A stretch of DNA of 64,000 bases from assembly GCA_034401795.1 (NCBI GenBank), contig CM067366.1, positions 84,120,147-84,184,146 of the forward strand. Direction: 5' to 3'. A model generated the notes under the pieces. The model had not been told where the DNA came from, searched no databases, and saw nothing but the letters and a program-made list of their open reading frames with translations. The translations under genes and the position numbers were made by a program. Below, piece by piece: positions 8,789 to 55,114 of the stretch; position 1 is the first letter of the stretch; each line of letters starts with the position of its first letter. Source of the stretch: Chaetoderma sp. LZ-2023a (Eukaryota; Mollusca; Caudofoveata; Chaetodermatida; Chaetodermatidae).

Positions 8789-11700
8789 CTGCGAAGAGAT
8801 AAGATATTGCGATGTTAGAGGAGTAACACAAGAATATATATTTCGAGTGGTTGACGCATAATGGACGAATCCGGTCTGTCAGTCAAGTATATGACGTCAT
8901 AATCAAGTACGTCACATGTAAGCTGGCGCCACACACATAAGTGACGGAAATACTCCATGGTGAACCTAGAATATCCCGCCAGGGGTATTAATTGTATGTT
9001 TTTGATAAAATATTTCACAGGTTAGCTGTATACGGTATTTATCCGTAAAAAGAATGGGTAAAGGTTTAGATAAAATATGGTGGAGGCTAGGTTGCCACCA
9101 ACTTCTGGATTACGGTTTAACCAGAAATAGAAGTTAAACGTTTAACCCCGTCGTGTGTCAGCAGCGCCTCAAAGCGATCAGAATATACTTGTATCAATTA
9201 ACCCTTTAATGGTCAAAATTTTACAAAATTTACGAAAATAGCTTCCTGTTGTCGTGCAAATAGACATTACTCAAGACCACTACAGGTGCTGTTCTTTGGC
9301 CAGCTTGACCATGAAAATTGTCAAGAAAATCCAGCCTTTTATTACCTAGTGTCTGTTTACCCGCTGATAGAAGACTATTTTTAAAAATTTACCACTGGAG
9401 TAACTGGCTCGGTTACCGAGACAGTCATTCCAGTGGTACATTTTTCAAAATAGTCTTCTATCAGGGGGTAAACAGACATTCCTCAAGACATAGTCCGGTG
9501 GTTGTTTTTTGCAGTCTTAACCATTAAAAAGGTAAGTTAACATAAGAGAGGTTAACTTAAATTGGATCAACGTTCAAACAATTAACATTAACAGTTAGCC
9601 AGTAACTGCCACCATATTTTAGTTAAACATTTAGCCGTTCTTTGCATAAAAACGGTCAACCAAAACAGAATCCTTGCCATTTTACCCCACCCACAACACC
9701 ACCAGCAGCCTACTAGCATTGGGGGTGGGGTGGGGGTGGGTGGTGGGTGTGTGGGGGGGGGGGTTGTGGTGGTAAGAGAGATCAGCATCACATCGGTCCG
9801 TCTGTCAATCCACCCGTCTGTACATTTCTTGTCTTGTTTCCATGATATTGGGATTCTGGGAATTCAAAGCATCGCCTATAGATCGATCCAAATACCGCGC
9901 AAAGCCTGGCCGGGGCTTAGCTAGAGATAGGCGGGGCATAGATAAAAGTGGATCCCTCCATTGCTAGACGCATTCTGAATAACCTTGAAGTTCGCATCAA
10001 TTGTAACAGTTGACTTTGGTCGAATCACTCCTGTTGCATGGAGATTTTATTTTAAATAAAAGAATCCTGTATAATAGCATTATATTGCAGGTTACTGGGC
10101 CGGTACTGACCCAATACAGACATACACGGCCCGCTATTGACCCAGTAACATGCACTATTAAGATAGTAGTCTTAAGTACGCCACTTTGCTGATTATGACG
10201 TCATCTTCAAACTTTCGCCGTTGCTTACCCATTTTCCTAATAAATTCATTTTACCGTGTAATAGAGAACCGCGTCATAAAAGCTACCCTTACAACGCAGG
10301 CTACCCGGCCGGTACCGGGCCAATCCCGGGACTCATGGGCCCAGTTACCAGCGTTATCATGATAGTCTCCATTTGTCAGTATAAAAGTACAGTTTCGACG
10401 ACTGCAATCATCAGTGAGTATGAAATGAAACCATGTTCGACTGGCGAATAGTATAAATAACAATAGTTCTCTCGTAGAATGCGCTGTACTAACTGCCACT
10501 TAATAATCATATTGATCTCGCCCAGATACGTAGTTCAATTAATTCAATAATGAACAACAACGACCATGGACACTGATAGCTTTAAATGAGTCCCGATCAT
10601 AACTACGAGAAAAGCTTTCTGGTAGATCTTATAACGGCATTTACATATCCAATTCTATAGCAAAATGCACCACTATTCATTTTATGTGCAATCATCATAT
10701 TGCGTCGCACCGCATGAATATTGGTGGTGTGGGTGGGATGGGTGTCCATTGCTTGGACAATGGGAATAGCGAAATGTCAGGTTGGCCTACGCTGCAGCTC
10801 AGAAATAACTTATTTGCTTCCAAAACAAAAACACTAGCACGTTAGTACAATTTGAACACGATGAAGAAATATTTTGTTGAATATTTCAACATAATTAGAT
10901 TGCAATGTCTTTCAATCCCAGTTATGTTCAAAATAGTCATCAGTACCATTTACTTTGTTTTGAAAACATTATTTCTGATCTGTACTGTAATCTTGTACAA
11001 TTTAACACTTTAGAATTTATAGTAATGTAAGCTGTTGCTGTCACTACGGTCTGTTACTGCAGCGGCTTTCATTACCAGTGTCTCCAGAATGGATCCCGGT
11101 CTTCCGTTCAGCAGTCCCTTTAATGCACGTTGATATCTTGTTGCGACAGAATAAGAATTAACGAAAAATATCTTCCAACGCACAATTTGTCTTACCTGGA
11201 ATGTTCACAACGCCGCAACTGGATTCGGTAGAGCCTGAATCCCGTCTAATAGCTGATGTTCTCGTTGGTCGAATGTCTGTCACGTAGACGCTCTCACAAC
11301 TCCCGCTCTGTTCGCTGCCAGTCGCTGAGGATCCTGCATCGTGGATGGCAACAGCATCTAACATCGGGAATGGAGAGGGCTTCTGCGAGACAAAATGGCA
11401 AACTACATATTAGATACGGTAATGAGCAAGTACATATTAAGATGCGTATGGAACCGTATTTTATAGGAGGGAGGATTTGCCTTGAGAAGGGACCTTTCCA
11501 TTTCAGCTATGCCCCGCCCATCTCTAGCTCAGCTCCACGCACACCTCGCTCGTGTTGGGATCGATCTCTGAACTCCCTGACTATAAATTTCCAGAAAACT
11601 ATACAGGTAAGCTATTGAATATTTTGGAACTCATTTTACTTGGCGCTGTTGCTGCCTATGGCAGACATGTAATTCGTACAACGCGTCGGACTATTATGAG

Positions 11701-14700
11701 TCAAATACGGGCCAAATAGAATTATTTATGACGTAATGATTATGACGTCATCCTATACGCCACTTTGCTGATTATGACGTCATATGACGTCAGATGATAG
11801 ATGGAAAGGTGAATTATTAGGGTGCCTGATATTCGCATTTAAGCACTAGAACGTTAGAGCAACACGCACTAAAGTCATTTATGATATAAGAAACCAGTAC
11901 AATATATAAAACAATTGGATAATATCACTGAATTTGTTTTGCATCTGATCGGAAGAATAAACCCAAACCGATTCCGCCTTAGCCTTGAACTTGTCAATTC
12001 CCAATTCCCAAACTTATATTCTCCCTACCCACCCATCGCCACCCCATCCAACCACTCCACCATCCACATACCTCAACCCGCATCGTACACCTTTGTACGT
12101 AAGCGAACTCATGTTTTAAATTTGTATGTTAAGATTGATGTTCGCTCAATGTCAGTTTTGGAAGCAACAAAAAGTAGTAGCACTAAAGGCAAATGAGTAA
12201 AGTAATTAAAAACATAAGAAATGGCTTTTGCGGCACAAAATAGTTGTCTTGTTCCCCAAAGGCAGATGGCCGCTATTGACAGGTTTAATATCAGACAGAC
12301 AGACAGACATCTTTACTTCTTAATCTCCCCATGCCTCCCTTAATAAAGCACATGACTGAGCCAGTACTGACCAGGTATTGGCTCAGTACCATGCCAGTAA
12401 TTTAATATAGGTGTAGGAACAGAGAGGCATCATCTCCCCACCACATGATTTCCTCTCTCATAGCGTATCCCAATAGCGTCCCTGGTTGGAAGTTGTTACT
12501 GTCTCAGACAGAAAATATATTCAAGTTTTTATTTCCAAATGTCCAAAACAATTTTAGTTATATGATATTTAATTAGTCCAATAATCTGCATACGCATGGG
12601 TGCGTGCGTGCGTGCGTGCGTGCGCGCGTGTGCGCAACATTTGCACATACGCGTGCGTGCGTGCGCGCTTGTGTGCGCGCGTGCGTGCTAGTTCTATTTT
12701 CTTACCTCTAATGACAGTATGTAACTGGATGGTAGATTGCGCCGGAGATCAGTAGTGGCAGGACCGTACCCCAGCGTTTCTCCAGCGGTAGAGCCAAGCA
12801 TCTGCACACTAAGGTTACACTGAATCAATGATTTCTGATGATACAGTTTATCTCGGCTATTGTTAGCGTCAGGACTCAGTGATCCGTCTGATGTCACAGG
12901 AGATCCTGGCTGGTAGAAACTACTATTCTTATCGTCGAACAGGTCAGCTCCGGATTTTGTCTGATCAGATGACTTTCCACGCTTGCACACGATATAGATA
13001 ACAAGGACGAGAACGAGAGAGATAACGGCACATGAGACGACAACCGCGATTATTATTGTTTTATGAGAGGTAGCACCGGCTTCTGATGTCTGGAGGGCTT
13101 CTGGCTCGGCGAGTTCAACCAAGACTCGCAGGGTGGCGATTGTCTGTCGCTGCGGTCGACCACTGTCTCGTACCGTCAGAGTAAGATAATAAGATGTAAC
13201 CTGGGATAACGATGCGATACTGGACTTTAGTTTTATCTCTCCGGTTCCACTATCAATATTGAAAATATAACTGTCTGGTGACATTTCTATTCCATAAACT
13301 AAACGAGCATTTGCACCAAGGTCAGCGTCCATGGCATCCACAGTATGCACTGTGGCACCAACATGAAGAGTGTTTGTAATATTGACGGTACTATTAGTTG
13401 GCAATATAATGATGGGGTCGTTATCATTAACGTCATTGACAGCTACGCGAATACGAATAGTTGAAGAAAGTGGTGGTTTTCCCCCGTCCTGCGCCAAGAC
13501 TAAGACGTCATGTGTAGACCTAGATTCGCGATCAAGTTTGCTTGATAATTGCATGATGCCATCACGCGCCGATATCGAGAACAGTGGGTGTGCTTTATCT
13601 TGGTGCAATAAGGAGTAATGTATCTTACCATTTTGTCCAATATCGCCGTCTAAGGCGTGTACCTGACCAACAACTGTTCCTATTGGGTCTACCTCGCTGA
13701 CGGAAAACATGTGTGTAATCTGCGTGAATTTCGGCGTCTGGTCGTTCTTGTCTAAGACAATAATTGTTACGGTGGCTGTGCTAGTGTATGACGGGGTACC
13801 CGAATCCCGCGCAAATACCATGAACTTCCACTGGTCAACCTGTTCCCGGTCTAAGGGTGACAGTGCTCGGATGTCGCCAGACTTCTCGTTGATCACAAAG
13901 GTGCCTCTGACTTTAGGTTCTAAGAAGTAGGACAGCTCTGCGTTTCGTCCAGCATCCGCATCGCTCGCTGAAACAGTAATAATAACCGAGTTTAGCTGGT
14001 CGTTCCGTCTGTTCTCCCTCTCTCTACCAATGAATTCCTTCTGGGAAAACACAGGCTTATTGTCATTGACGTCATCGACATTAATGAGAAGCACACTATG
14101 ACCTGTCATGGCGGGAGAACCGCCGTCTCTACAGGTAACATTAACCAAGTATGACGACTGGACCTCTCTGTCCAAAAGAGTATTTAAAATGAGTTTATAA
14201 TCATCACTGAGTACCCTCTGTAAAGAGAATAATTTGTTCTTAACTTCACACGACACCCTACCATCAGACCCCGAGTCACCATCATATGCGGTCATATGGG
14301 CGATGAAATGTCCGACCTTGGCCGTTTCAAGCACACTGACTACATTGTTCCTATTCAGCACATTGAATGTTATGGACGGTGCATTGTCATTTATGTCCGT
14401 CACGTTCACGATGACCACTGTTCTAGAAGTCTGCGATTGACTTCCACCGTCACTAGCCTCTACAATAAACTGAAACAAATCTGCAGTTTCATAATCCAGG
14501 GATCTGGTTAGCTGTATTGCACCGGTTACGTTACTGATCGTCATCATACCGGTGATGCTTTCTGGTGTCTGTGGACTGAAGCTATATGTAACTCGTCCGT
14601 TTTCGCCCTGGTCAATATCACGTGCGGTGACTTGTACAAGGAGTTGGCCAATAGGGTAATTTTCTGGTACAGAAACTGAGTACTTCGGCTTACTGAAAAC

Positions 14701-15447
14701 TGGAGAATTGTCGTTAGCATCGGTAACTTCGATATGTACAACCATGTGGCCTGACTTGACCGGTGAGCCGCCATCTCTGGCAATGATCGTCACTTCGTGA
14801 AAGGTATTTTGTTCTCGATCTAACGATTTAATTACTACGAGCTGCACATCGAATGTTCCATCGCCATGTCTGTTGCTTTCTAATTGAAATATTCCCGCGT
14901 TTCGCCAATCCGCTTGCAAATCATATTTCTGAACACTATTGCTTCCAATATCTTCATCAATGGCAGAGGGTATCGGAAACTTAACACCAGTAGTGAGAGC
15001 TTCTGGAACTCTCAACCAGAAAGCATTTGTAGGGAAAAGCGGACTGTTGTCGTTGCTGTCTACAATATCGATACTAACCGGAATCACTTCGAAGAAGCTT
15101 CCGCTTGATTCAAGGGCAGTTACTCGGAGTTCTACTCTGCATTGGTTATTATTTTGGCATATTGTCTCGCGATCTATCTGTTCGGCTGAACTTAATATCC
15201 CTGAAATAACATCGACGGAGAACAGATCTTGTTTACTATTTCGCTGTGCTATAAGTGAGAATTGGAGATTCTGTGCAGCTGACTGACTCCAACGTTCCAG
15301 TATGCCACTGTCTGACGCGACATTGCCAACATATGACCTGGCAGGCTGTTCCTCCGTGAACTTATAGTGGACGGTAGCGAGCTGACAGAGAACGGAAGTG
15401 GCCAAGAAAGACAGAATGTACAATACTCCTATCCACCGTGTCGCCAT
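8577..15447 (-). CDS. Protocadherin, seven cadherin repeats, three coding exons (full gene model)
   Basis: Calcium-dependent homophilic adhesion protein of the plasma membrane. My model joins exons 15447-12706, 11382-11196 and 8788-8577 (minus strand). Both introns are GT-AG with strong sites and matching phases: phase 0 after residue 914, then phase 1 where G joins AT to make an Asp codon. The product is about 1046 residues: signal peptide, seven extracellular cadherin (EC) repeats, one membrane helix and a cytoplasmic tail of about 226. Seven repeats plus a large ectodomain exon fits delta-type protocadherins. I cannot assign an orthologue. Introns of 1323 and 2407 bases are full of foldback elements. 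A splice acceptor 63 bases before the ATG implies an upstream untranslated exon not located here. No frame defects are seen. The exon structure is predicted, not transcript-supported. Confidence 0.85.
9198..9540. repeat. Foldback family A, copy 2 (longer variant)
   Basis: Starts TTAACCCTTTAATGGTC and ends at TTAA 9537-9540. The core TTACCACTGGAGTAACTGGC, CTCGGTTACCGAG, then GCCAGTCATTCCAGTGGTA-like arm is well kept. The left side is about 90 bases longer than other copies and looks composite. Confidence 0.7.
9720..9766. repeat. G-rich low-complexity run
   Basis: GGGGGTGGGGTGGGGGTGGG followed by a run of nine or more G. Could form G-quadruplex structures on the plus strand. Confidence 0.7.
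10082..10166. repeat. Foldback family E copy
   Basis: GCAGGTTACTGGGCCGGTAC at left against CCCAGTAACATGCACTATTA at right. Diverged ends. Lies in protocadherin intron 2. Confidence 0.65.
10290..10366. repeat. Foldback family E copy
   Basis: ACAACGCAGGCTACCCGGCC pairs with GGGCCCAGTTACCAGCGTTA. The interior contains CCGGTACCGG. Separated from the previous copy by only ~125 bases. Confidence 0.65.
10795..10985. repeat. Foldback family D copy
   Basis: CAGAAATAACTTATTTGC leads into a hairpin. The left arm GTTGAATATTTCAACATAAT and TAGATTGCAATG pair with CTTTCAATCCCAGTTATGTT and CAAAATAGTC. The outer part ends GTTTTGAAAACATTATTTCTG. Within protocadherin intron 2. Confidence 0.6.
11196..11382 (-). 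CDS. Protocadherin cytoplasmic exon 2
   Basis: 187 bases bounded by acceptor TTTTGTCTCGCAG|AAG and donor CCAG|GTAAGAC. It begins in phase 0, matching the preceding exon. The 62 residues start KPSPFPMLDAVAIHDAGSS and contain GSCESVYVTDIRP and RRDSGSTESSCG, a Ser-rich acidic composition typical of protocadherin tails. It ends one base into a codon. Confidence 0.8.
11488..11815. repeat. Foldback family B copy, inside protocadherin intron 1 side
   Basis: The left end GACCTTTCCATTTCAGC and right end GATAGATGGAAAGGTGAA form terminal inverted repeats. The left arm has GCCCCGCCCATCTCTAGC and the right arm three TGACGT-containing motifs (ATGATTATGACGTCATCC and others). The core hairpin is half deleted: CGCTGTTGCTGCCTATGGCAG is followed directly by the right flank. 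Confidence 0.75.
12343..12402. repeat. Foldback family E copy, decayed
   Basis: CACATGACTGAGCCAGTACTG pairs partly with GGTATTGGCTCAGTACCATG. It lacks the ATAACGC ends, so assignment is tentative. Confidence 0.45.
12598..12690. repeat. GTGC/GCGC microsatellite just past the protocadherin exon donor
   Basis: (GCGT)n with GCGC interruptions, beginning only ~15 bases into the intron after the donor at 12705-12704. Possible source of splice-site length variation. Confidence 0.9.
12706..15447 (-). CDS. Protocadherin exon with start codon: signal peptide, EC1-EC7, transmembrane helix
   Basis: 914 codons. The ATG at 15447-15445 has a good context (AAGATGG) and begins a signal peptide (residues 1-21, ending SVLC). 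Cadherin repeats end at calcium motifs: DSNDNSP (~130), DANDNSP (~243), DINDNAP (~351), DDVNDNKP (~458), DKNDQTP (~566, the last Asn-Pro context altered to Gln) and NDVNDNDP (~671). A seventh repeat runs to ~780 and lacks a terminal DxND. LDRE and DxD/DADxG motifs recur between them. The transmembrane helix is ~797-820 (IIIAVVVSCAVISLVLVLVI), followed by CKRGK. The open frame runs three codons past the donor (GAG|GTAAGA, GT at 12705-12704) to a TAG in the intron, so the real exon stops at 12706. Confidence 0.95.
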
Positions 15448-17190: not shown

Positions 17191-17384
17191 TTTGACATAT
17201 GACACAAATTGGTGTAACTAATTTTCTCTATTCAAATTGTTATTTTGGTTTTAATAATTTCTTCTTCTTAGTGATGTCAAATCCCATTTATATATATATA
17301 TATATATGTAGATGGTTGGTGCTATTTTTTTTAACTGTCTCGCTGCTGTAAGCCACCAGTCAATAATTTAAATGAACAACCACT

Positions 17385-17478
17385 TTTGACTTGTTGAATA
17401 CTTTTGAAACAATTTGACTGAAAGTTGTTGGTGGCTTAGCCACCAATAATTTTCAGTCAAATTGTTTTAAAAATATTT
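17385..17478. repeat. Stand-alone B-type hairpin
   Basis: TTGAATACTTTTGAAACAAT plus TTGACTGAAAGTTGTTGGTG, a GGCTTAGCC turn, then CACCAATAATTTTCAGTCAA and ATTGTTTTAAAAATATTTAG. Near-perfect stem of over 40 bases. No B end modules flank it. Confidence 0.8.
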
Positions 17479-17989
17479 AGCAGGTCCATAGATATAACCC
17501 CTGAAATATGTGGTCTACAAAAACACAGTCGTCAGATGGTTAATAGAAAATTATAGATTTTTTGTACAACGTGACTCACCTAGTAGGCATTCACTCCTGG
17601 TGCGACTTACAATGATTTGAGACATCAGGCCCAGGAAATATTACGCTTTATACAGCTAGAACGTCCAAGCGGAAATACCTCTTTGGTCAACTTAAAACGG
17701 TGTATCAATTAATGCAAAGCTATGAATTTCTCGCTCAATTGAATTATCCTTGATTTAAGCTAAATTGATCCTATTTAAAAACAGTGATTTTTACCCTAAA
17801 AGATATCCGTTTCTGAGTAGAGAGAATATTTCTTCAATGGATCAATGGTTTTTTCCGCAAGCTGATTAAAACATGAGTTGGAAAGACCACTTTAGGGGGT
17901 ATATATTGCGTTATTTATGTCAACACGTGATTAAGCCATTCCATTCTAAATTCCAACTAACATGAATTAATTGCACAGCTAAATATACA

Positions 17990-24856: not shown

Positions 24857-26024
24857 TGTCGTTGACTCAATGTTGCTGTCGGTGGATTATTTTGGTAATA
24901 GTGATGTATAACATGCTTCCAAAATTGTAGGCTAAGTATTTTTAAAGTCCATCGTCGGAAAGTAACTCTGGGGTCAGCAAAGACCAGCTTACAAGACTAT
25001 AGCCATCCAGCGTGACTCCTGAGCGCGCGAACAAGCTTGTTCAGTCTAAAAAAAGCATAGGGCAAGGCCCTAAGACGAAGACTATGTAGTCTTAATTAGT
25101 ATCGTTGTGTCAGAGGTGTGATAGCCATGTGGGTATGGTAATGACGATAACAGGATTCAAATTATAGTGTAGACTAACAGGCTTATACGTACATCTAGAT
25201 TGATTTTGAGACGCCTTCGCACATACTGCGCTTCATCGTGACTTCAGTGGAAACACATTTAGGCGCGAAAGTCTGTCAAAATCAATAAAGTTAAGCTTAG
25301 CATGCTCTACTTCTGAATCGTGCGGTTTTCCTGCCCGATTATCATGCCATTCGTTTACAGTAGTTTTCTACCATCATCTGGTATGGACCAATCAGGTCAG
25401 AATACTGGGCAAACTTCTCACAATATTTTTTACAAGTGAAAAACTCTATGTCAAGAGACTTTTTGGTTCTTAGCCAATAAATTTGTTTCGATAGTCAGAG
25501 AAAATTGATAGACTAATATCTCTTCAAAACAGTACATGTTAGCAGTTATGGAAGCTTTTTCAGACCCACTCCTGTGATAACGGCTAGAATCATGTCTCGT
25601 ACACGCTTCCTATAGATGTCCGGTCTGGATCCATCCACTTTAGTGACATTCAGCCCAATGGCCTGCTCGATTTCCATCCATAACCTCTTGTTTTACGCTT
25701 CCGAGGGAATATCAGCATGGGTGGCGTGTATGAACCACCTGCTCCAATGGAAATCTCACCCGTGACAAGATGCCCCCGCTCATACGGTGCAGGAATTTCC
25801 TTCTACGCTGAGTATAATGGGCAGAATTTGGACATCAACATCCCTATTCCTGGATAAAACGGGTCCATGTCCCGGTATTGGACACCGGGGACATCAATTC
25901 ATAAAGCTTACTGATGTTTGACGTTAACCGGAAAGAGTAGTTAAGCTGTAGTAAGCACAATGAATTGCGGAAAGTTGGCTGGCGACCGAATACTATTATG
26001 GTTGGTACAAAATTCATTACCCAG
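24857..26024. other. Non-coding, no gene seen
   Basis: Short inverted repeat GTATTGGACACCGGGGACATC near 25870. No coding pattern or RNA gene recognised. Confidence 0.4.
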
Positions 26025-26101
26025 ATAACGCAGCTTACTGGCCCGATTCTGGGCCGATACTGAAAGTATAGGCACGGTATCGGCCCAGTATGCTACATTA
26101 T
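26025..26101. repeat. Foldback family E copy, 77 bp, CAG duplication
   Basis: ATAACGCAGCTTACTGGCCC at left, GGTATCGGCCCAGTATGC and TACATTAT at right. Flanked by CAG at 26022-26024 and 26102-26104, an apparent 3-bp target duplication. Confidence 0.8.
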
Positions 26102-26147
26102 CAGGGTGTGTTTATATACTTCATTAATATTTAAAGCTGTTGGCTTT

Positions 26148-26449: not shown

Positions 26450-26987
26450 AGAATACCAATGGATGAATCCGATCTGGCAATCAAGTACATGACGTCATAA
26501 TCAATTACGTCACATGTAGATTGAAGTCACAATCATACTTGACAGAAACATTCCCCCATGAACCTAAAATAGTCCGGCAGTTGTACGGATTGTATGCTTT
26601 TACTTTTAAGAAACAGCCGTTGAATATTTTGAAACTAATTTGACACGGTGTTGTTGTTGCTGGCAGCAACAGCACCCAGTCAAATTCGTTTCAAAATATT
26701 CAACAGCTTACCTGTAGAGTTTTCTGGAAATTGATAGTCACAGAGCTCAGGGATAGATCGATCCCAACACGAGCGAGGTGTGGGTGAAGCTTTATTAGGA
26801 ATTGGCGTGGCATAGCTAAAACTGGAAAAGTCAAATATTCAAAATGTTAGCTGTATAGTTACGATGAGATTGAGAGTCTTGGAATTCAGAACTAAAAGTA
26901 TATAAATCGCTCCCAGCACGGGCACAGCATGGGCAGAGCTTCGCTAGAGATGGGCGGGGATATAGGTAAAAGTGGATTCATCCATTG
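26450..26987. repeat. Composite family B element with two right ends
   Basis: Left end CCAATGGATGAATCCGATC and arm TGACGTCATAATCAATTACG. Hairpin core GTTGTTGTTGCTGGCAGCAA, then CAGCACCCAGTCAAATTCG. A first GC-box arm ends TAAAACTGGAAAAGTC at 26836. A second (GGCGGGGATATAGG) ends AAAGTGGATTCATCCATTG at ~26987, which pairs with the left end. It looks like one element nested in or recombined with another. Confidence 0.65.
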
Positions 26988-27362: not shown

Positions 27363-27765
27363 CGATAATGAACCTTTCCAGTTTTAGCTATGCCCCGCCA
27401 ATCCCTAGTAAAGCTCCACCCACACCTTGCTCGTGTTGGGATCGATCAATCCCTGAACTCCGTGACTGTCAATTTCCAGAAAACTATGCAGGTAACCCGT
27501 TCAATGTATTGAAACGAATTTGACTGGATGCTGTTGCTGCCGATGGCAGCAACAGCGGCCAGTCAAATTAGTTTCAAAATATTCAAAAGCATGTTTATTA
27601 AATAACAAAGACAGACAATTCGTACAACGTGTCGGACTATTAAGCGTTTAAGACGGACTAAATGGAGCCATTCATGTTGTAATTGATCATGGCGTCACCA
27701 TACATGTTAGTTGACTATGACATAGTATGATGGATGGATAAACTGGAAAGGTCCATTAGGCTTAG
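27363..27765. repeat. Foldback family B, best-preserved copy
   Basis: Terminal inverted repeats TAATGAACCTTTCCAGTTTT and AAACTGGAAAGGTCCATTA, about 17 paired bases with possible TA flanks. Left arm: GCCCCGCCAATCCCTAG, AGCTCCACCCACACC, TTGGGATCGATC. Core: ACTGGATGCTGTTGCTGCC, GATG, GCAGCAACAGCGGCCAGTC. Right arm: ATTCGTACAACGTGTCGGAC, then weak GACGT-like motifs and GATGGATGGATAAAC. About 400 bases, no coding capacity: a non-autonomous element. Confidence 0.85.
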
Positions 27766-38324: not shown

Positions 38325-39085
38325 TTTGATTATGCTGTAATGAGAAGCCGGGATTCCGGAGTCGAAAGTAAAATGTTTTATCAATCGTTGTCCGGTACCG
38401 TATTTATCGGATTTACTTTGTACAGATCGCGATTAGAGATAGTATCGGGCCAGTAGCTCACGATAAACCGTAGCAAAAGCTTAGCCGTAGAGATAAAGAA
38501 ATCCTAGGCCTGTTTGTGAAGCTAACAAAACAAGGATCAAGAGATAGGAAGATTTCGATGTTTAGATCAAGATGTCATGTTTATTAAAGTCACCGTTAAA
38601 CTTGCCTCCCTAACATGATCTCCTGGTCTCACGACTATAAGCTTTTCGACCAGGAAGTCCATTGCATAGCGTGATCTACTGATACAAACTTCTATAGGCG
38701 AATCTCTTAATATGAGTACAGCAAATTTTTATCACACAATCTCGTGAATTCAGTATCATTAGCTTTGTAATCGGAATCTCATACATAGTGAGTCCATCGT
38801 TGTCCCTGTGTGGACTACATTAACAGCAACTCTTGATCTAAGTATTCAAAGTAGTCCACTTATACTATATTGATCTAAGTACGGGAAGCTTCCGTAGCAG
38901 AAACTCTTAACGTGAATAATATATAAGCTTCCTGCTAGCAGAATCTCTCGATCTATGTAGGCCTAAGTTTTCACATAACGATCTCCTGATAAATGTACAT
39001 ACCTAAGATGATCCCGTGATCGTTGTACTTTAAGCTTTCATAACAGGACTTCAGTACTACGTGATTCTCTAGCAGAACCTCCCCT
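38325..39085. other. Non-coding, no gene seen
   Basis: Contains a run of similar short phrases (GATCTCCTGGTCTC, GATCTACTGATAC, TGATCTAAGTA) spaced irregularly. Possibly a very old tandem repeat. Confidence 0.3.
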
Positions 39086-39087
39086 GA

Positions 39088-39172
39088 TGGCGCAGGTTAC
39101 TGGGCCGGCTCAGGGCCAATACTGCGCCGCATTGCTTCAGTAACTGCCCAGTAACTTGTGTTATCATGGTCT
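39088..39172. repeat. Foldback family E copy
   Basis: GGCGCAGGTTACTGGGCCGG at left pairs with CTGCCCAGTAACTTGTGTTA at right. Confidence 0.7.
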
Positions 39173-39204: not shown

Positions 39205-39575
39205 AGGAATCCAGTCCATCCCAAGCTAAGCTCCACCCATGGTTCGCCCGTGTTGGGATCAAGCGATCATTGCACGCTCTGAATCACAATTTCCAGAGAA
39301 ACATACTGATAAACTGGTAAATGTTTTGAAACTAATTTTACTCAGTGCTGTTGCTGACTATAGCAGGAACAGCGCTCAGTCAAATTAGTTTCAAAATATT
39401 CAACGGCATGCTTATTAAATAGTAAAGACATACAATTCGTACAACAACGTTTAGTCCGTCAGCTTATCTACGTCATTCATGGCGTCATTGATTATGGCGT
39501 CATAATACACGTTACGTATTTGATTATGGCGTCATATGATGGATGGATAAGCTGAAAACCGCCATTGTCTTCACC
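39205..39575. repeat. Foldback family B copy
   Basis: AGGAATCCAGTCCATCCC (alternative end type), AAGCTCCACCCATGGTTCG, core CAGTGCTGTTGCTGACTATA and GCAGGAACAGCGCTCAGTC, then ATTCGTACAACAACG and three GGCGTCAT-type motifs to GATGGATGGATAAGCTG. Confidence 0.7.
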
Positions 39576-43402: not shown

Positions 43403-43655
43403 TGGAATGTTAATAGTAGAGGCATCTAATTGTAGAACAATTTTCAGAGTGGTGGTGGGGGGGGGGCGGCACCCCAGACACTCCACCACCCCCACCCCAA
43501 CCCCTCTACAGGAAGGGGATAATTTACTGAAAGTTAGTAGCAATTTTCTCTCAAATTATAGAATTATTTTCAGCATCAGCATTCATAATCCGTGTAAAGC
43601 CTTGTACAATATAGATATGTATACCATATATCAAATACTGCAGCCTAAAACCCTG

Positions 43656-43722
43656 ATAACGCATGTTACGGGGCTGTTCTGGGCCAGTATTGGCCTGGTA
43701 CCGGCCCAGTAACCTGCGTTAT
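43656..43722. repeat. Foldback family E copy
   Basis: CTG then ATAACGCATGTTACGGGGCT, with GGCCCAGTAACCTGCGTTAT at right. The right-hand trinucleotide has changed. Confidence 0.75.
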
Positions 43723-45990
43723 GTTTGTAGTGTGCCCTCTAGCATGCGTCAGCTCGCTCATCGTCAACAGTATTGCGGAATATTGTCAATATGATACCCC
43801 AGCAAACGCTTTTGTAAACTGTTTATCTGATCGGTTTAAATGTCGTGTAAATTGTTCAAATAATTGAAAATCTACAAACTCTGACAGCCGATAAACACTG
43901 CACACATTTCAAACCTGCCAACGATGACCGCGAACGGCAGACGACGGTTGTGGGATAAATATTTGCCAATTATCGGCCATTAGCGAGTAGAGATAGACCC
44001 TTGAGGTATAAACTCGACCACACCAAGAGGAAACCCTACATCTTGTTTATAACAATCTCTCTCTTCTTCTTTCCCTCTTTCTCATGCATTAACAATTCTT
44101 CAACCTCTCTTCCGCACCCCATTATATTCTCTTCCATCCCTCCTTACCTATCTTCATTTCCATGTCTTCTCAGCCAACCCACACCACCCCACCACCTATC
44201 CCGCCACCTCACTCACCATCCTCTGCCATCTAGTACATTCTATTCTGTTCTAGCATGTATGTCTCCCGTCTTTACATTAGGCGCAATTATTCTGATAGCT
44301 TTGAATATAGACAATTGTTATCCAATGGCCACAACTCTACAAGTGCATATATCAGGCTATGGGTCTATTGTATAATGTATTAGGCCTCTTTCTGGCCAGT
44401 CAGTTTGGACTATGTCTACTGTTGTAGATTCACGTATTAACATCTTACAACTAGTAGGCCTATTGCGTAAATAAAATCGGATTTCAACCTCTCTGATAAC
44501 TCGGGTTTGTTGTTGAGTTATCGGCCTTCAATATAAGCGTTGCTGAGTGTAAAGTATGGAAAGTTAACACTATGAAGCTAAGAAGCATTCGTAGTGATAA
44601 TGTAGCGAGGTTCCACCATCCGAAATGTGTGATCATGCGTCTGTGTTTCTTCATCCTCCTTTGATCCACTTTCCACGATAACTCGGAAAATTGATGTATA
44701 CTAACTTCTAAGAAATACACGCGCGCTTGCATCTATGCAATCTTGCTCTGTTCTGTGTTTCCACGTATATCATTGATCCTATAACTTGACGTTTCCAACA
44801 TACCGTTTTGTAATGTACAATTAATGTTATATATCCGTCATAGGATACTGCGAATCCTTTTCAACAACTCTACTTAAACCTATCATATATCAGGGCGCAT
44901 TCCTGATGGCATGATCTTGCAGATATAGGCTCATACTTGTTTATGAGTCATGATGAGTGCATGTACCGCACGCGAACAACCTTTGTAGCGAATTGCACAC
45001 CAATAATTTGCGCCGATACTTGGCCGTGCGCGAGTCACGGAAACATAAAACATTGTTCTCTAGCAATGTTTCCGATACCAAATATGTTGTATACTTCTAT
45101 AAGCAAACCCCTGCGCGATTGTAAATACATTCTGTTCTTTTACATCGATTATTGGTCTCGAACAATCACGTCTAATTTAAAATGTCAACCTAGTCTGAAC
45201 TCGCATTTTAGCGACATGATGCGAGATCATGACAATTGGCTTAGACCACTCTTTGCCAATTGTGTACAGCAGTCCATGATTTAAATCAACACGGGGGTTG
45301 CAAACAGATGCAAATGTGTCATTTAAACAGGTGGAAGAAAACTAATACATCCATGGATTATAATGAAGAAACCAGTGATTCTAATAAGGGACCTTTTGAG
45401 GGTATATACCACCAAAGTTCAGCCTGGGACCCCAAAAAGACTAGTAATGGCAGTGGGTCCCATGAGGCCACTGGAAATCTTTTATGAGTGTTAAATACTA
45501 AGTAGGTACTACTTAATACATAGATAATTCATAGTTGTGAGTCCATGGTACACTGTAATTTTAGCATGAATGAGATAATACTGCTTGGGAACTCCACATT
45601 TGAGTTTTGGGACCCCAAGATTTCATCTGGGGACCCTAAGATTTCAAGGTGTGGGGTCCTTCAGACCGCCAAAATTTAGATGCGATGAGAAACACTTGAA
45701 GAACCTAAAAAGGTTATTCAAGGCTAAATAGTGGTTAGTTGCTACTGCTGGTGATTGTGAAAACACAGAATTAGTATACATGCAATATTTACACAGAGAC
45801 CAAACGTACTACGACTGGATCTTTCTTTATTATTTTTTCATCATCATGATTCTTGGTTCGCATCTCATTCTGTATAACCAAGATTGGCATCGAGTCGGTA
45901 CGAAATAGCAGAACGAGACAGATACTCCCAAGTCCCAAGACACTCCGATCAGTCGCTAATGTATGTCGAGATTGGATGATTTCACGTGCC
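43723..45990. other. Non-coding, no gene recognised
   Basis: A pyrimidine-rich plus-strand stretch at 44040-44230 gives a 124-codon frame without domains. GGGACCCCAAGATTTCA-like phrases repeat at 45610-45660 (twice) and 45430. No splice-supported exon. Confidence 0.4.
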
Positions 45991-50284: not shown

Positions 50285-50520
50285 TGGAGCACTATTTAAC
50301 AAACATTCGGTTTAATATTTTGAAACTAATTTGACTGGGTGCTGTTGTTGTCATAGGCAGCAACAGCACCCAGTCAAATTAGTTTCAAAATATTCAACAG
50401 CTTACCTTGCAAATGGGATTCTGGGAAGTAAAGATTCAAAGTATATATAAATCGATCCCAACACAAACAATGGCCGGAGCTTAACTAGGAATGGGCGGGA
50501 CATAGCTAAAAATGGATTAT
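50285..50520. repeat. Family B half with perfect core hairpin
   Basis: TTTGACTGGGTGCTGTTGTT, GTCATAGGCA, GCAACAGCACCCAGTCAAAT make an almost perfect stem. The GC-box arm follows (GGAATGGGCGGGACATAGC). The TGACGTCA arm is absent. Confidence 0.75.
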
Positions 50521-53027: not shown

Positions 53028-53263
53028 TTAAGAAAGTGGTTTTCAGCCAAAAAACTACCTCTGCAGTGGTTTTGAGAAATCTCCATTTGCAGACCAGGAG
53101 AAGACTATTTTTTGAAAATTTACCACTGGAATGACTTGTTCGATAACCGAGCAAGTCATTCCAAGGGTTGATTTCCAAAAATAGTCTTCTCTTGGTCTGC
53201 AAATGGACATTTCTATGAGATAATTGAAATTTTCTTGAATAAATTCTATGGTTAAAGGGTTAA
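53028..53263. repeat. Foldback family A copy 7, well preserved
   Basis: TTAA at 53028-53031 and 53260-53263. Arms CTCCATTTGCAGACCAGGAG, TTACCACTGGAATGACTTG, central TTCGATAACCGAGCAAG, then TCTTCTCTTGGTCTGCAAAT. End GGTTAAAGGGTTAA. Confidence 0.8.
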
Positions 53264-53599: not shown

Positions 53600-54618
53600 A
53601 TTTTGTAATTCTGTCAATTATGATTGTCATTTTTAAACATCTGATCCTTGTAAAACTTGCCGAGTCTTCCCTTTAAGGTGTTGAGCATAGGATCTGTGAC
53701 AACTGGCTCAGTTAGACCATTCAAGTAGTTTGTTACCCGGATGCTGAAAACTCTCTTCTGTGTGTTAGATTTAAAACGTTGCTTTACCAGTTTGAAGCTG
53801 TGTCCTCTCGTGCGATGTCCATCGTCAGATGGCAGCAGCTCCTCATAATTTACATCATAGATCCCATGAACATACTTGTAAGACTCTATTAGGTCGTCAC
53901 GCACGTGCTGGTATATCAAACTGGGCAGATTTAGTGCTTTCAAGCTGTCTTCATATGGGCTATCTTTCAGGCCAGCTATCAGTTTTGTAGCTCAACGCTG
54001 GACATTCTCAATGAGCCAGATGGCTTTTTTTGTGCAGGGGGACCATACCGTATGTCTGTGTTCTAGATGTGGCCTCACTAGGCTCTTGCAAAGTAGTATA
54101 AATGTGTTGGCTTCCAGCCAGACAAATGATCTTCGTATCATGGCAAGTATCTTGTTGGCTTTGTTGACTACCATCTCCACATGCTGTCTGAAATTTAGAT
54201 TGTTGTCGAGGTAAACGACGAGGCCCTTTTTACAGGTGGTGTCTTCTAGAATGATCCCCTGGCTGTTCTCTATCATAGTATGCATCATCTTCGCATTTGA
54301 TCTACCTAAGTGCATTACTGCGCAATCTTTTAAGTTGTTGAGGTATGTTTTGAGCTTGCTCTGATAACGCCGCTTACTGGGCCACTGCTGGGCTGATACC
54401 GGGCCGATACTACACGTATCGGCACGGTATCGGCCCAGCATCTGCCCAGTAAGCTGCGTTATCTGGGTGTCATGGTCTTCTGTTGTAGTGATTTGTAAAA
54501 GGAGCTTAGTATGATCAGCGAACATCTTGACTAAGTTGTGGGCAACTTGTGGCATGTCATTAATGAAGCAGACGAACAGTACTGGCCTTAAAACACTTCC
54601 CTGGGGTGTATACAATAA
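53600..54618 (-). pseudogene. R4: 5'-truncated reverse transcriptase with an in-frame foldback insertion
   Basis: Starts mid-RT at YTPQGSVLRPVLFVCFINDM, then MFADHTKLLLQITTTEDHD. A 99-base family E element follows in frame, then SKLKTYLNN and CAVMHLGRSNAKM, RPHLEHRHTVWSPCTKKAIW and IENVQR. One TGA sits where relatives have a second Arg. Downstream is ATKLIAGLK, YQHVRDDLIESYKYVHG and GHRTRGHSFKLVKQRFKS, ending DNHN at 53614. The catalytic FADD is FADH, and the WSxxW segment after YLNN is deleted. Decayed CR1/L2-like element, truncated as target-primed insertions often are. Confidence 0.85.
54364..54462. repeat. Foldback family E inserted into R4, 99 bp, CTG duplication
   Basis: ATAACGCCGCTTACTGGGCC at left pairs with GGCCCAGCATCTGCCCAGTA and AGCTGCGTTAT at right. 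CTG flanks both sides (54361-54363, 54463-54465). Ninety-nine plus three bases is 34 codons, so the RT frame continues uninterrupted. Confidence 0.9.
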
Positions 54619-54929: not shown

Positions 54930-55114
54930 AAATCAAGTAGATGTCCATTTCCAGACCGAGAGAAGACTGTATTTGAATATATGACACTGGAATGACTCGC
55001 TTGACTATCAAGTATCGAATCAGTCATTCCAGGTGTAAATTTAAAAAAATAGTCTTCTAGTGGCCTGCAAATGGGCATTTCTTCAGACCACTATATATAC
55101 CATTTAAAGGTTAA
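54930..55114. repeat. Foldback family A copy 8
   Basis: GATGTCCATTTCCAGACCGA, GACACTGGAATGACTCGC, then GAATCAGTCATTCCAGGTGT and CATTTAAAGGTTAA. Left end unclear. Confidence 0.65.

Follow-up and report, generated by a model that had tools for sequence, protein, structure and literature searches.

A 109-bp palindromic MITE with a 2-bp target duplication in a truncated LINE reverse transcriptase copy of Chaetoderma sp. LZ-2023a

Stowaway/Tc1-mariner MITEs are palindromic, occur in high copy number and are flanked by a 2-bp TA duplication. Foldback elements carry long inverted arms with internal repeats and vary in length. NuwaI elements with CWG target-site duplications occur in animals, according to the part of their description that was consulted (PMC4482050). 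The palindrome described here belongs to a repeat family designated family E and lies in a window of 64,000 nucleotides (GCA_034401795.1, contig CM067366.1, positions 84,120,147 to 84,184,146), where it interrupts a LINE reverse transcriptase (RT) copy designated R4. In the window sequence, CTG at 54361-54363 is followed by ATAACGC...GCGTTAT at 54364-54462 and by a second CTG at 54463-54465, an arrangement that an earlier note had taken for a 99-bp foldback element with a 3-bp CTG target-site duplication, 102 bases or 34 codons together. The foldback between the two trinucleotides is indeed present, and the predicted single-strand fold of the palindrome reaches -51.1 kcal/mol (z -13.75; shuffle mean -15.6, with none of 200 shuffles as good). 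However, the empty sites of RT relatives and 37 distinct genome copies give an element of 109 bp, whose true ends lie four bases past the G at 54363 on the left and four past the C at 54463 on the right. The total event is therefore 109 + 2 = 111 bp (37 codons, a multiple of three), and the duplication is the dinucleotide TG. The features of the locus are as follows.

53626..54607, minus strand: R4, the 5'-truncated LINE RT copy that received the insertion, delimited by matches to its relatives
54357..54358, plus strand: left copy of the 2-bp target duplication (TG)
54359..54467, plus strand: family E MITE, 109 bp, CTCTGATAACGC...GCGTTATCTGGG, delimited by RT-relative alignments and genome copies
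54363..54410, plus strand: left palindrome arm, comprising a terminal part and about three 11-bp units GGGCCGATRCY
54416..54463, plus strand: right palindrome arm, 88% complementary to the left arm
54468..54469, plus strand: right copy of the 2-bp target duplication (TG)

Matches of R4 to its relatives start at 53626 in 22 of 29 cases and end most commonly at 54607 (12 of 29). R4 is 5'-truncated, since the relatives carry on upstream as RT; it contains an internal stop after IENVQR, reads FADH where a long relative (L085) reads FADD, and lacks 39 bp at about 54317/54318 that are present in full in 20 of 26 relatives (gap 78 versus 39). The reading frame stays open across the insert in R4, as the earlier note had stated. 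This open frame is probably accidental and of little functional weight, because R4 is truncated, carries a stop and is short of 39 bp near the site, and it requires no function, because two of the six frames are open in the family consensus too. A palindromic repeat of another kind, with arms containing AGAAGACTATTTTT and TCTGCAAATGG, lies on either side of R4, at 53075-53214 and 54941-55078. The window also holds several LINE RTs and an uninterrupted ORF of 917 residues with six cadherin matches (12694-15447, minus strand), which is protocadherin-like by eye. These RTs and cadherin matches point to an animal genome.

The palindrome is a mobile insertion in the RT copy. A search of the genome (2.44 Gb, 2753 contigs) with the RT flank at 54100-54360 gave 40 matches (212 candidates), 30 of which were taken as loci, including the window itself. 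Both flanks are kept in 26 of the 29 relatives (25 distinct gap sequences), all 26 of which are without the element; in the other three (L104, L105 and L110), the right flank is absent within 1500 bases. None of the local alignments between the 29 relatives and the window crosses the element. The right block resumes at 54468 in 19 relatives and is elsewhere or missing in 10, and the left block extends to 54358 in 4, ends at 54326-54327 in 2 and ends at 54317-54319 in 23, the last owing to the deletion in R4 itself. In these alignments, the TG duplication shows as an overlap between 54357-54358 and 54468-54469, and the usual empty junction of the relatives, GAGCTTG joined to TC(A/G)TG (GTCTGTTTGGAGCTTG joined to TCGTGTTCTTCT), defines an insertion of 111 bp, i.e., the 109-bp element plus the 2-bp TG. 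At its join, L085 reads EEHD-KLQTD (full stretch EEHDKLQTDINNLKEWADTWQ), with which R4 agrees after removal of 111 bp (EDHD-KLKTYLNNLK), in place of the direct join of DHDTQ to SKLKTY proposed previously. The empty copies that the earlier note had sought as proof of insertion were thus found, with 111 rather than 102 bases missing and no triplet at the join. Its order of events, R4 before E, is borne out by the 26 empty relatives, none of which carries the 99 bases. In another LINE copy (L092), the gap between the anchors measures 974 bases and represents an insertion or rearrangement within a few dozen bases of the E target site.

Copies of family E were sampled across the genome in two ways. 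With 54340-54490 as the query, 82 matches were obtained (40 of 2397 candidates scored); three of the 40 loci had duplicate flanks, leaving 37 distinct copies, including that of the window. All 37 are 109 bp long from CCC to GGG in this sample, which was chosen for likeness; CCCT forms the left end of 30 and CACT that of none, and TGGG forms the right end of 34. The family end sequence is CCCTGATAACGCAGSTTACTGGG, and the consensus ends CCCTG...CTGGG are represented here by CTCTG...CTGGG. Relative to the consensus, 9 of 109 bases are changed in the copy in R4 and 1-6 in each of the other 36, values that give no clock since the copy set was chosen for likeness. Exact 22-base ends occur 568 times in forward and 566 times in reverse orientation, compared with 0 for the reversed control; the sum of 1134 counts ends, not copies, and more than a thousand recognisable ends confirm the high copy number of the family. 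Because the first query carried flank bases, a second sample was drawn with the 22-base end pattern, which holds no flank base. It comprised 70 of the first 100 listed places, all on contig C1, of which three had duplicate flanks. Of the 67 distinct ends that remained, 17 were without a clear right end and 50 were usable, the latter being short copies of 62-131 bp. Family E copies thus stand in differing flanks in both samples (37 distinct of 40 and 67 distinct of 70).

Immediately outside CCC...GGG, 31 of the 37 distinct copies of the first sample carry an exact 2-bp duplication (shuffle mean 6.5), as do 30 of the 50 copies of the second (shuffle mean 6.6, at most 15 in any of 5000 shuffles). 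When registers with lengths of 1-5 and ten shifts were tested on the best 27 copies of the second sample, the 2-bp register (18 of 27; shuffle mean 3.4) was the sole one below p 0.003. Copies that show no exact 2-bp match (6 of 37 and 20 of 50, respectively) may reflect decay, and a 4-bp match in the same register occurs in 2 of the 37. In the second sample, the 30 exact duplications read TA (9), AT (4), GA (4), CA (3), TT (3), TC (2), and GC, TG, GG, AA and GT (1 each). In the first sample, the left dinucleotide starts with T in 28 of 37 copies, a preference that was put down to the query carrying a flanking T; of the 30 exact duplications in the second, 15 start with T. In one family E copy, L008 (C13:109465679-109465784), the direct repeat that borders the element on both sides, GGACACGA, is longer than 2 bp.

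Five further copies of the family lie in the window, given here with their flanking dinucleotides.

10077..10163, plus strand: sixth family E copy, the most worn, TA/TA
10286..10362, plus strand: fifth family E copy, TA/TA
26020..26106, plus strand: second family E copy, TA/TG
39082..39169, plus strand: fourth family E copy, TC/TC
43651..43727, plus strand: third family E copy, AA/TA

Among the six window copies, conservation continues outward beyond ATAACGC to CCC(T/A)GATAACGC. The CWG register is exact in two of the six (shuffle mean 0.67, p 0.1) and the 2-bp register in four of the six (p 0.08), neither being significant on the window copies alone (n = 6). A second foldback family, with TTTGAAACTAATTTGACTGGGTGCTGTTG-like arms, is present in the window at 17383-17491, 26615-26708, 27500-27586, 39320-39400 and 50310-50398; the family E ends L058 and L128 both enter sequence similar to it, which suggests nested insertion.

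The consensus of 36 copies begins with CCCTGATAACGCAGCTTACT, followed by about three GGGCCGATRCY units, a short loop and the complement, and the consensus arm matches itself at lag 11 in 21 of 24 cases. Lengths in the second sample cluster at 11-bp steps: the values 76, 87, 98, 109, 120 and 131 (109 +/- 11k) account for 23 of 40 C-type lengths, and 99 and 88 (99 +/- 11k) for 6 of 10 G-type ones, the other 21 of the 50 lying off this ladder. The arms of family E thus tend to change in length by 11 bp.

Family E is a non-coding, non-autonomous MITE, and the locus is best explained by an abundant cut-and-paste element of this kind, 109 bp long, that leaves a 2-bp duplication of varying sequence (probability about 0.93). 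The CTG/CTG pair at R4 and the CAG/CAG pair at the 26-kb copy nevertheless resemble duplications, and since animal NuwaI elements with CWG duplications are on record in the consulted part of PMC4482050, a 99-bp element starting at ATAACGC, with a NuwaI-like 3-bp CWG duplication and CCCWGGG-like targets, has to be weighed. This reading was plausible on the six window copies, two of which are exact in the CWG register, and it was ruled out by the genome copies and the empty sites, which makes it extremely improbable. The relatives show no triplet at the join and 111 rather than 102 missing bases, and the triplets on both sides of the 37 distinct copies are CTG/CTG in 33 (CTG/ATG in 2, CTG/CTT in 1 and TTG/CTG in 1), unchanged as element sequence should be. 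In the second sample, where the right triplet alone is informative because the search pattern fixes the left CTG, the best 27 copies have CTG in 17, as a CWG duplication would allow, but CAG in 4, CCG in 3, CGG in 2 and CAA in 1. It is next to inconceivable that the palindrome was ancestral to the LINE family and was lost from the other copies, given 26 of 26 relatives with both flanks but no palindrome at the site, and E copies in differing flanks throughout both samples.

A Stowaway-like MITE of the Tc1/mariner type, duplicating strictly TA, accords with TA being the commonest duplication (9 of the 30 exact ones against a background share of 0.078, p 0.0003; 11 of 37 in the first sample). 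However, the other 21 of the 30 are not TA, on which ground a strict TA rule was dismissed; decay of a TA pair would be unlikely to leave the same non-TA dinucleotide at either edge, and the target here reads TG in most empty RT relatives too, so that this assignment is very unlikely. PIF/Harbinger and ISL2EU, with TWA or AT duplications, were likewise set aside, as the dinucleotide of E varies and is AT in 4 of 30. A CMC (CACTA-Mirage-Chapaev) MITE with diverged ends is possible, if on balance unlikely. Animal CACTA elements can leave 2-bp duplications, and E has such a duplication of variable sequence; the tunicate ENS1_Cis and two MITEs with 2-bp duplications are on record in the consulted part of PMC6004678, and 2-5 bp duplications are given for the wider group in that of PMC12730594. 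The CCC...GGG ends of E differ from the 5'-CAC...GTG-3' ends of CACTA in the same parts of both sources; in the second sample, L044 and L049 have CAC on the left. No transposase was linked to E in the limited stretches read.

These stretches, read in search of a transposase-bearing partner, extended about 1.5 kb (8 ends) or 0.26 kb (9 ends) downstream of the 17 ends lacking a clear right end, with longer stretches around four of them. They revealed no partner, and the 17 ends have no common interior suggesting one. A facing pair of E ends 1.8 kb apart on contig C1, considered as a long partner, proved to be two separate short copies. Tc1-like ORFs near the solo ends L076 and L078 (HTH_Tnp_Tc3_2 match) were not taken as the partner because they lie within a 1.67-kb stretch that is 98.9% alike at both loci and perhaps represents a young family. 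A literature search with the family E end sequences gave nothing relevant by title among the entries listed. Searches of IMG/VR with two pieces of the RT and a single end pattern, of a phage collection with the RT protein, and of a plasmid collection with the family E element gave no match. GTDB yielded two exact matches to the end pattern, both in contigs of bacterial MAGs; neither is followed by a palindrome, and they are probably due to chance.

For the preferred cut-and-paste MITE, a transposase supplied elsewhere, now or formerly, would bind the element ends and insert the element at a staggered cut of 2 bp, variable in sequence but mildly favouring TA, and repair of the gaps would generate the 2-bp duplication; here, the target would have been TG within the LINE RT copy. 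The enzyme that moved family E may have been a DDE-type transposase acting in trans, the 11-bp length steps could arise by slippage or arm-to-arm conversion, and R4 was presumably truncated before the insertion. More speculatively, and rather doubtfully, E might be the non-autonomous branch of a transposase lineage not yet described and characterized by CCC...GGG ends, a near-any 2-bp duplication and arm changes in 11-bp units; the 11-bp unit, about one helical turn, would then perhaps be a transposase-binding site with a fixed helical phase. As a finding, a MITE in a dead LINE copy is ordinary; the value of this nested site is that it pins down where the members of an abundant family begin and end, illustrates how a nearly symmetric element end can mimic a 3-bp duplication, and brings out the 11-bp tendency in arm length.

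In being short and non-coding, with inverted ends, a target duplication, empty sites and a high copy number, family E has the general properties of MITEs. It resembles NuwaI (PHIS superfamily) in the CWG triplets flanking ATAACGC...GCGTTAT; however, in the consulted part of PMC4482050, CWG is the duplication of NuwaI and its TIRs usually begin with GGG, whereas in E the CWG is internal, the duplication is 2 bp and the 5' end is CCCT in 30 of 37 copies. With ENS1_Cis, CMC-NA_1 and CMC-NA_2, as described in the consulted part of PMC6004678, E shares inverted ends and a 2-bp duplication, and the latter two are MITEs like E; animal CACTA/CMC elements have CAC...GTG ends there, in contrast to CCC...GGG. 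Family E is classified here as a MITE in general terms, since it combines a 2-bp duplication, as in animal CACTA, with ends other than CAC...GTG. The foldback elements Tetris, Galileo and Tm1 have long inverted arms, internal repeats and variable length, as does E, which differs in measuring only about 0.1 kb and in its 2-bp duplication. Finally, E is like the Stowaway/Tc1-mariner MITEs in its palindrome, high copy number and 2-bp duplication, with TA the commonest, and differs from them in the 21 of 30 exact duplications that are not TA.
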